A stretch of 64,000 nucleotides of DNA from an uncultured Dehalococcoidia bacterium (GTDB lineage: Bacteria; Chloroflexota; Dehalococcoidia; Lucifugimonadales; G958296245): positions 744,001 to 808,000 of the forward strand of contig OY282458.1 of the NCBI GenBank assembly GCA_958296245.1, written 5' to 3'. Under the pieces are notes generated by a model. It saw nothing but the letters and a program-made list of their open reading frames with translations, ran no database searches and had not been told where the DNA came from. Of the stretch, positions 54,381 to 63,133 are shown piece after piece; positions within the stretch are counted from its first letter, which is position 1; each line of letters begins with the position of its first letter. A program made the translations under genes and the position numbers.

Positions 54381-54507
54381 GTCCCAGATTTAGTGGGTGC
54401 CTCCTGGGAGCGCGGGCGTCTCGCCCGCACCACCCCGGGGCCTGCGCCGGAAAGACGGGATGGGTAGCGCCGTCCTAATGAAACGACACCGCCTACTAGT
54501 CTGGGAC
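54381..54507 (+). mobile_element. Small palindromic element of a second family, copy 1
   Basis: Ends GTCCCAGATTTAG and CTAGTCTGGGAC are imperfect inverted repeats. An identical 36-nt core (54399-54434) contains GCGGGCG-TCT-CGCCCGC and is found again at 63073-63108. About 127 bp, no ORF. No clear target duplication. Confidence 0.6.
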
Positions 54508-55457: not shown

Positions 55458-56192
55458 CTAGAAGATCTGCTCTGCCCTGAGGGCCAGCAGTTCGGAGCCC
55501 TTGCCGAGCGCCCAGTAGTAGATGAGATAGGCGCCCGCGGCGATCATGGCCACCTTGCCGGCCGGCTCGACCCAGAGCATGATCTTGCGTATCCAGCGCG
55601 AGACCGCGTCCTTGAAGAAGACTATGCCGAGGGTTGCGCCCACTATTACGGCCCCCATGCCGAGGCCGTAGCTTACGGAGCCTATGACCGCCTCGGCGAC
55701 GCTTCCGGCGCTGAGGCTCTGGCCCGCCACGATGCCGACCGCCACGAGGAAGAGAGGCAGCGCGCAGCTCAGGGAGGCGATGGCGTAGGCGATCCCGAAG
55801 AGGAAGACGCTCCAGAGCCCGCGTCCCTGGCCGAGGTTGACGCGGCTCGCGGACATGATGGCGATCTTCCTGCCGGTCGCCAGCAGCCATATCCCAACGG
55901 CCATTATGGCGACGCCGACGCCCAGCCCGACGAACGGCAGCAGCTTGCCCACGACCGCGCCGCCCGCCGCCAGCACCAGCCCGACCGCTCCGAAGACGAC
56001 GATGAACCCAGCCGTGGCGGACAGCCCCATCAGCAGGCCGTTGAAGCCGGACTTGACGGGGTTCGCGTCCGCCTCGGCTGTGCCAAGCTGGTACCCGACG
56101 TAGGCGGGGAACATCGCCGCGCCGCAGGGGTTGAAGGCCGCCGCGAGGCCGGCGGTGAACGCAAACACCAGCGGTACGTCTATGTTGATCAT
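55458..56192 (-). CDS. CcdA/DsbD-type thiol-disulfide membrane transporter
   Basis: A 244-aa protein with six to seven TMs. Redox cysteines C23 (NPCGA) and C143 (SLSCALP) occupy the CcdA positions in TM1 and TM4. It moves electrons from cytoplasmic thioredoxin to extracytoplasmic partners. Begins 18 bp after the MoeB/ThiF gene, and ends the minus-strand run that holds the UGSC selenoprotein. Confidence 0.85.
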   Translation of the reverse strand: MINIDVPLVFAFTAGLAAAFNPCGAAMFPAYVGYQLGTAEADANPVKSGFNGLLMGLSATAGFIVVFGAVGLVLAAGGAVVGKLLPFVGLGVGVAIMAVGIWLLATGRKIAIMSASRVNLGQGRGLWSVFLFGIAYAIASLSCALPLFLVAVGIVAGQSLSAGSVAEAVIGSVSYGLGMGAVIVGATLGIVFFKDAVSRWIRKIMLWVEPAGKVAMIAAGAYLIYYWALGKGSELLALRAEQIF

Positions 56193-58047: not shown

Positions 58048-59691
58048 TCATGGCCTGTACTGGTCGATCCCAACGGTGGTTGTCTCCGGGCTGGTCGGCA
58101 TGACCGAGGTCTTGGCTCTGTCGGCGCCGACTACCAGGATACGATAGCGGTCAGCGCTTTCCAGCACCGGCGCCGTGATATTCAGCCGCTGCTCCTCGGT
58201 CAGGTTCTCCAGCCATCTCCAGTGAGCCGCGACCCTGGCCTCGCCCTCCAAGGGCATGTACTGGATCATCTTGCCGAGGCTAGCGTTGGCGTGGGTGTGT
58301 ATGAACTCTGCGGCGCCCCGCTTGGTGAAGCCCTGGGCGCCCACCGGGCCGGCGACGTCGGGCGGCATCAGGATCAGCGTCTCTCTGGTGTGGCGCTCGC
58401 CGAGGCCTCTGTTGCCGAACGTGCAGCCGTACGCGATGGTCTTGAGCAGCCCCTCGGCGGTGTCGTTGCCCTGGTCCTGCACGTCCAGTTCTCCGTCGGT
58501 GATGAACACCGATACGGTGCTGCTCCCGCGTTCGAAACCCTGATCGACGTGGTACGGCTCCCATGGACTCGCATTCTCGTTCTCGGCGATGCACATGATG
58601 AACTTGCGGGTCGTCCCGATCGTGTCCATGTCCATCCGGTTGGGGTACCAGTATCCGATGTTCTTGAGGCAAAGGAAGAAGGCGCGGCCAATGGTGATGT
58701 TGACGGCATTGTCCCGGCCCGGCCCCAGGGCGGACCGGGCGTTGATTCCCAGTTCCGCCGCCGCGGGCCCGTTCACCATCAGAAGGGGCGCGTTGGGGCT
58801 CGTGGACATGAGAAGCGACTTGCCGCCGTGCGGCCCGACTTGAGACAGGGCCTTGACGGCGGCGACGATCACCGGCATGTGCTCCCGCCTTGCCCCCGCG
58901 AGCGCAGCGTTGGCGGCTATCTTCTCAACCGTGGCGAGGCCGAAGCCCGGAGGCACGTCGCAGACGACGTGATCCGGCGGCAGGGAGACACCCTCCAGCA
59001 GATCGTCGACCGCCTCTCTGGTGGCGGCCATGAGCGGGAAGCCGTCTCCCAAGTCCCGGGCGAGGTACTCATCGTTCATCCGCAGCAGGGCGTCGAGCCT
59101 GTCCGCGCCCTCGAACCTGTCGACCTCGCCCGGGTCTTGGTGCTCCGCGCCGGAGTCGGGGCCGCCCGTAGTCAGGGCGCGCACCAGATCGCCGAAGGCG
59201 GGCTCGGTGTTGCGTACCGACTCCTCCGGGTTGAGGTTGCGGTATATCCGGGGCACGACGACGAATTGTAGGCCGGGCATCCCAAACGCGCGGGAACTGG
59301 CGACGGCGTCCCCCTCGAAGCGCCCTGACACGAGAGGGACGGCGGGCCTGCCCATCTTCTCGACCTCGATCATGTCGTGGACCATCCACGACGCGCATGT
59401 CCCTCAGTCGGCGGTGGCCCCCACGACGACGTCGCACTCTTCGGCGGCCTGCCTCAACACCTGAGGCGGCGCGGGATAGTTGCCGCTCGTGTAGAACCTT
59501 GTTTCCAGGTCGTCGAAGCGCTCCCTGAGCATCTCGCCCACGCGGTTCAGGGCTACGTCGCCGCCGTGGGTGCCGCTCCAGACCAGTCCGACCCTCTTGC
59601 CGCTCAGGTCTTCGGGGCGGGGGGTGGCGGGCAGGGTGGCGAGCATCCCCCTCTGCTGCGCCACCGGATTGAGAACCTCTAGCAAGTGCAT
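58048..59691 (-). CDS. UGSC-family selenoprotein (in-frame UGA = Sec96)
   Basis: A 547-aa protein when the UGA at 59404-59406 is read as selenocysteine. The upstream part (MHLLEVLNPVAQQ...VVVGATAD) and downstream part (GTCASWMVHDMIEVEKMG) are in one frame, giving GATAD-U96-G-T-C99-ASW. This matches the family named for its U-G-S-C motif, here with S replaced by T. Strong AAAGGAGG precedes the ATG at 59691. A hairpin follows the UGA. The N-terminal 170 residues are the recognisable domain; the C-terminal 375 residues, with repeated VxVxAA/IxG patterns, are not recognised. Part of an operon with the propeller and DUF502 genes. Confidence 0.9.
59374..59392 (-). promoter_or_regulatory. Bacterial SECIS-like hairpin of the UGSC gene
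   Basis: Eleven nt after the UGA, GTCGTGGA-TGG-TCCACGAC forms a perfect 8-bp stem with a 3-nt loop. Very similar placement to the SelW-like SECIS (10 nt). Confidence 0.7.
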
Positions 59692-59722
59692 GGCAGGCTG
59701 CCTCCTTTAAGTCCCGATCACG

Positions 59723-63055: not shown

Positions 63056-63133
63056 GTCCCGGATCAGAGGCCGCCTCCTGGGAGCGCGGGCGTCTCGCCC
63101 GCACCACCTCTAAGATTCCGGCTAATCTGGGGC
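63056..63133 (+). mobile_element. Small palindromic element of the second family, copy 2
   Basis: Ends GTCCCGGATCAG and CTAATCTGGGGC are inverted repeats like copy 1; the 36-nt core 63073-63108 is identical to 54399-54434. It interrupts sequence CGATTTTGTGTAACCGT (63041-63057) that recurs at 63141-63156 beside the MITE terminus. The two families are nested here. Confidence 0.55.

Follow-up and report, generated by a model that had tools for sequence, protein, structure and literature searches.

Organisation of the locus

The stretch of DNA analysed, hereafter the window, covers 64,000 nucleotides of the genome of an uncultured Dehalococcoidia bacterium. Towards its end, two open reading frames (ORFs) of 95 aa (59404-59691) and 445 aa (58048-59385) lie in the same frame on the minus strand, separated by one TGA and six codons (GTCASW), with a junction reading GATAD-U-GTC-ASW. 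This arrangement had been pointed out, without the strand, in an initial annotation made from the letters alone, and the sequence bears it out. Once the TGA is translated as selenocysteine (Sec), the two ORFs join into a protein of 547 aa, in which U96 lies in the context ..CDVVVGATADUGTCASWMVHDMIEVEK.. The two frames are one gene encoding a two-domain selenoprotein (Table 1). As for the second domain, i.e. the approximately 360 residues extending beyond the UGSC model, it was absent from the initial annotation.

Table 1. Features of the selenoprotein gene, with positions given in the window
Feature	Position	Strand	Basis or remark
Whole selenoprotein gene	58048-59691	-	547 codons and stop TGA; translation with TGA as U, full-length orthologues with one TGA
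Stop codon TGA of the gene	58048-58050	-	
C-terminal partner domain, residues about 190-547	58051-59124	-	Separate neighbouring gene in many relatives
UGSC domain, residues 6-174	59170-59676	-	PF24696, 110 bits; AlphaFold2 model; fold comparison
Putative bacterial SECIS-type hairpin, 8 bp, loop UGG	59374-59392	-	Starts 11 nt after the UGA; family-wide signal and covariation at third codon positions
Codon of Cys99, partner of Sec96 in UxxC (UGTC)	59395-59397	-	Like position 96, invariant in alignments A1 and A3
UGA codon for Sec96	59404-59406	-	Nearly all relatives have TGA here; some other lineages have Cys
Shine-Dalgarno-like AGGAGG	59701-59706	-	9 nt 5' of the ATG

Family membership and conservation of the UGA codon

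The Pfam model of the UGSC family (PF24696) matches the joined protein with 110.1 bits across the UGA, and the parts on either side of the UGA taken alone with 44 and 32 bits (cut-off 25), which argues against a chance juxtaposition of two ORFs. The NCBIfam equivalog model (NF041046) scores 95 bits (E 4e-27), under its cut-off of 125 bits, so the protein is to be regarded as a divergent member of the family and not as the NCBIfam equivalog. The Sec (or Cys)-Gly-x-Cys signature of the family is present as U96-G-T-C99, in agreement with the proposal of a U-G-S-C motif in which Ser is replaced by Thr. In other words, this is a genuine but divergent member of an already known selenoprotein family. 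In 2008, UGSC was described as a major family of the GOS metagenome, fused to a conserved domain "Unknown_1" and with a "likely Trx-like fold" but no function (PMC2398784); UGSC selenoproteins rank among the most abundant in ocean and freshwater metagenomes (PMC2398784).

Conservation extends over both sides of the UGA. Readthrough orthologues with exactly one in-frame TGA each occur in 13 genomes of the same order, at 36-77% identity over the matched stretch (one of them, L032, being apparently frameshifted further on), and fused orthologues retain the TGA down to 27% identity. The nearest named relatives belong to the SAR202 cluster and to other Chloroflexi/Dehalococcoidia assemblies, with up to 68% identity, which makes a SAR202-like chloroflexotan the most likely source of the window. 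At the level of the phylum, the Pfam UGSC family is found in 42 of 400 genomes, with exactly one TGA in nearly all of the approximately 90 matches. Besides, Cys homologues exist: among named genomes, a Cys codon stands exactly at the position of the TGA in Mycobacteriaceae, Oryzicola mucosus, Nonomuraea corallina, another actinomycete, a Sphingomonas and the archaeon Natronomonas, and at least four changes between Sec and Cys are counted on a FastTree tree. The motif variants UCTC, UAGC and USTC, each seen in one relative (L046, L069 and L085, respectively), indicate that the residue following Sec need not always be Gly. In addition, the motif lacks both Sec and Cys in five distant UGSC-domain paralogues (e.g. 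GDSGQGAW), which are still linked to the partner domain; they may form a branch of the family without redox function.

Regarding the decoding machinery, the genome (2.69 Mb, 98% complete) contains a tRNA-Sec with the anticodon UCA (65.9 bits), SelA (525.6), SelB (343.2) and SelD (373), all above their cut-offs. SelD itself (C1:4795-5715) has one in-frame TGA and hence is probably also a selenoprotein. With family similarity running through the UGA and a full set of Sec genes in the genome, the UGSC-family selenoprotein split by its UGA, as initially put forward, is well supported.

Hairpin downstream of the UGA codon

The hairpin announced in the initial annotation, a perfect 8-bp stem beginning 11 nt past the UGA, is found as GTCGTGGA-TGG-TCCACGAC. 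It agrees with the four published criteria for a bacterial SECIS (bSECIS), i.e. a G in the first two positions of the apical loop, a spacing of 16-37 nt, an upper stem of 4-16 bp and a minimum free energy of at most -7.5 (PMC13188914), its own stem being of 8 bp, its loop UGG and its distance from UGA to loop 19 nt. Folded freely as a single copy, the stretch of 67 nt that begins at the UGA is not unusual (z -0.58), and an Rfam scan of the window returned no hits. As the folding of this one copy is not significant, the support for the SECIS is comparative.

Over 125 distinct Sec copies, the mean folding z of the 45 nt after the UGA is -1.46; elsewhere in these loci, five other stretches give about -0.2, and 11 sites matching CGxC, two of which lie outside the family, give -0.30. 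Hairpins conforming to all four bSECIS criteria occur in 96 of the 125 Sec copies, as compared with 67 of 500 random windows and three of nine Cys copies. The stem pair 21-27, in a numbering that starts at the U of UGA, links the third base of the Trp/Cys codon with that of the codon two places further on. Of the 125 Sec copies, 120 have this pair where 69.6 are expected (82 G-C and 36 C-G), a count inflated by the relatedness of the copies, and the pair is kept although the second codon specifies Val, Ile, Ala, Leu, Phe or Ser. In the Cys copies, pairing is at the expected level (3/9 against 3.1). Once phylogeny is corrected for, the supported independent changes number about four, with some two co-changes and zero opposing ones, which is too few for significance. 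Altogether, to judge from the sequence evidence, codon 96 is almost certainly read as Sec, helped by the hairpin that follows it closely.

Predicted fold and relation to GrdB/PrdB

The AlphaFold2 model of the whole protein has a mean pLDDT of 94.1 and a pTM of 0.94. In the UGSC domain, it contains five alternating beta/alpha units, with Sec96 placed between a strand (88-94) and a helix (97-112). The best structural matches are sheets of the Rossmann/flavodoxin-like kind, namely 8ju8 (Z 12.0, 124 residues, 2.8 A), 8s7v_H (Z 11.1, 127 residues, 3.0 A), 7te2 (Z 10.0, 112 residues, 2.5 A) and cobalamin domains of MetH (Z about 9); they show a common architecture, not a function. No thioredoxin-fold chain appears among the fold matches listed for the whole model, an absence that alone does not exclude such a fold. 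PDB sequence searches with the profiles of UGSC, of the C-terminal domain and of GrdB revealed no credible relative. The UGSC domain is predicted from the model to be Rossmann-like rather than thioredoxin (Trx)-like, a new prediction which is at odds with the assumption made from the GOS data.

When 41 UGSC domains are aligned profile to profile by hhalign with 19 GrdB/PrdB-type sequences (PF07355), the probability reaches 95.7 (P 8.5e-9), with Sec aligned to Sec, the similarity lying in the region around and after Sec. The score of 60 is to be compared with a maximum of 29 in 100 column shuffles, 17.6 for the reversed profile and 11-25 for 24 real unrelated families whose alignments were drawn from the neighbourhoods; with the motif and its flanks masked, it still amounts to 42. 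Because the score survives masking as well as the shuffle and 24-family controls, the homology goes beyond the motif, and this profile evidence makes the UGSC domain and the Sec domain of GrdB/PrdB remote homologues. This relation is new here, and a literature search found no paper linking UGSC to GrdB. A direct search with PF07355 gave no match to the window protein up to E 1 and none in the genome, hence the wording "relative of" GrdB/PrdB and not "member of". The UxxCxxC motif of GrdB does not extend to the window protein, which reads UGTCASW where a GrdB sequence (L171) reads UGTCTRC. Short PrdB-like proteins from Chloroflexota carry U-P-x-C (UPNC, UPIC, UPLC), with the Cys form CPLC in others; they make up an abundant group of candidate selenoproteins.

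The C-terminal partner domain

No Pfam or NCBIfam model matches the C-terminal domain. Modelled alone, it reaches a pLDDT of 87 and has no clear solved relative. The alpha domain of class I fumarase (PF05681) was considered, given a weak Foldseek hit to 7xky_A (E 1.6e-5, TM 0.23; VIA Z 4.9), and rejected since the hhalign score of 19.9 (P 0.084) falls inside the decoy range. Compared with GrdB, the C-terminal domain displays no relation.

In most split loci, the partner domain is encoded beside UGSC, before or after it, and it is fused in others. As deduced from these gene arrangements, it is a near-obligate partner of UGSC, fused or neighbouring and in either order, which is reported here for the first time. 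Since the partner is fused in the window protein and encoded by a separate adjacent gene elsewhere, the two probably form one enzyme. The "Unknown_1" domain is likely the same as this C-terminal domain, and the fusion of UGSC with its partner was probably already known. The same genome harbours a second, split UGSC selenoprotein (C1:1963161-1964755), where the partner gene comes first and is followed by UGSC with its TGA (DUGSCSSC).

Genomic context

The neighbours of the window gene and of its closest orthologues vary from genome to genome and include neither Trx nor thioredoxin reductase (TrxR). Guilt by association with the genes around the window copy (a ThiF family protein, an unclassified membrane protein and a 260-aa protein without Pfam hit) was rejected on the ground that this context is not conserved in orthologues. 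Three genes downstream (55458-56192, minus strand), a membrane protein without Pfam hit looks by eye like an electron carrier of the CcdA/DsbD type and is not found beside the orthologues. A 30-bp interspersed repeat, GGTGCGGGCGAGACGCCCGCGCTCCCAGGA, at 54402-54431 and 63076-63105 (minus strand), supplies the same N-terminus to two unrelated ORFs; 13 copies with up to 2 mismatches are present in the genome and none of the reversed control.

Elsewhere, several UGSC copies lie beside genes for Trx or TrxR and for importers, which is also new here. On an Arthrobacter plasmid, the order is LysR, ABC importer, hydrolase, phosphosulfolactate synthase, trxB, trxA, partner and UGSC. In Mycobacteriaceae, a regulator, a TrxR-Trx fusion, the UGSC fusion and an ABC importer are found together, as named by sequence similarity and reading and not by a family scan. 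On a Variovorax plasmid, a TrxR-related NAD(P)/FAD oxidoreductase and a tripartite-tricarboxylate binding protein stand just upstream. TrxR-like genes are found in the loci L121, L145, L159, L169, L051 and L059. A minority of copies have TrxR close by, about 5 of the 80 named loci, which total 0.9 Mb. On the megaplasmid pFER4 of Paracoccus ferrooxidans (CP038202.1), selA, selB, trxB and a UGSC/partner pair sit within 17 kb, in what is a possible mobile Sec-utilisation island. There, the pair is labelled as hypothetical proteins, the UGSC gene being annotated in pieces, which is the fate that the initial annotation had predicted for such genes.

Proposed mechanism and alternative explanations

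On balance, the best overall explanation is a Trx-driven reductase of an imported organic substrate, with Sec as the nucleophile, a reading held with moderate confidence. It builds on elements that the sequence supports, i.e. the recoded UGA, the UxxC pair, the two-domain architecture and the remote GrdB/PrdB homology. In the predicted structure, the Sec96/Cys99 redox pair lies at the N-terminus of a helix in the Rossmann-like sheet. A catalytic cycle to which we give an even chance can be proposed by analogy with glycine and D-proline reductase. A small imported organic substrate would bind, probably where the UGSC domain meets the C-terminal one, this partner probably shaping the substrate site. 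The Sec96 selenolate would then attack the substrate and reductively cleave a C-X bond, Cys99 would resolve the adduct to give an Se-S bond, and Trx/TrxR would re-reduce the latter. Still broader and more tentative, with the chances somewhat against it, is the view that UGSC and its partner make up a widespread class of GrdB/PrdB-related, Trx-driven Sec reductases cleaving imported organic compounds in SAR202-like Chloroflexota and other environmental bacteria.

Among the other functions that could be ascribed to the protein, a general thiol-disulfide oxidoreductase of Trx-like fold, as assumed from the GOS data, would use Sec96/Cys99 on protein disulfides with the C-terminal domain as an accessory. 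The UxxC motif and the trxA/trxB genes of some operons speak for it, but the high-confidence model with its five beta/alpha units and Rossmann/flavodoxin-like matches (Z 9-12) does not, the profile match is to GrdB/PrdB, and a large near-obligate partner together with catabolic and importer contexts better fits a substrate-specific enzyme; this makes it unlikely. A selenol-based binding or detoxification protein, trapping metals or electrophiles instead of turning over as a reductase, would find a parallel among putative selenoproteins for which a review records a link to mercury transport (PMC13188914). No metal-resistance genes were noticed near the copies examined, however, and the neighbours are importers, CoA-transferases, dehydrogenases and TrxR, so that such a trap appears improbable.

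Other explanations deny Sec altogether. That TGA ends other genes here, and this very gene, could make the internal one a plain stop between two ordinary genes, or else the mark of a pseudogene, a sequencing error or an assembly mistake. Yet independent genomes keep the codon at identities as low as 27-39%, the halves on either side are both conserved and the Sec machinery is present; sequencing error and pseudogene are rejected on the comparative ground of the TGA-bearing orthologues in independent genomes, and the whole explanation is most improbable. As for TGA being read as tryptophan or by general readthrough, the frame is indeed open through it, but the replacements seen in UGxC-type orthologues are Cys codons and never Trp, a tRNA-Sec(UCA) exists and TGA ends genes in the window, which leaves this explanation scarcely credible.

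Significance and comparison with known systems

New are the relation to GrdB/PrdB, the conflict with the Trx fold assumed so far and a picture of two parts linked to Trx. With the link to GrdB/PrdB, a concrete and testable class of enzymes takes the place of a supposed Trx-like redox protein; it is the first testable idea of the role that the family may have. Which proteins to co-express, and with which electron donor, is suggested by the partner domain and by operons that also contain importers and TrxR. In practice, annotation can break a UGSC gene up into two or three hypothetical proteins. If the reductase reading is true, Stickland-type selenium chemistry would occur outside anaerobic amino-acid fermenters, and the multiple UGSC copies per genome would be a major selenium sink in those hosts.

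With the UGSC family (PF24696, NF041046; PMC2398784), the window protein has in common the domain, the position of Sec, the UxxC motif and aquatic bacteria among the hosts, and it differs by its UGTC motif and by an NF041046 score below the equivalog cut-off. Thioredoxin/peroxiredoxin-like UxxC selenoproteins share the UxxC redox motif with it but are unlike it in predicted topology and profile similarity. GrdB/PrdB (PF07355) differ from it by their third Cys (UxxCxxC), which it does not have, and by another partner domain; unlike them, UGSC proteins are found in many hosts not known as Stickland fermenters. The two nevertheless share Sec-G-(S/T)-C directly after a strand, followed by an E..G.P and an HP.G region, and GrdB/PrdB are small-molecule reductases, glycine reductase being Trx-dependent (PMC13188914).
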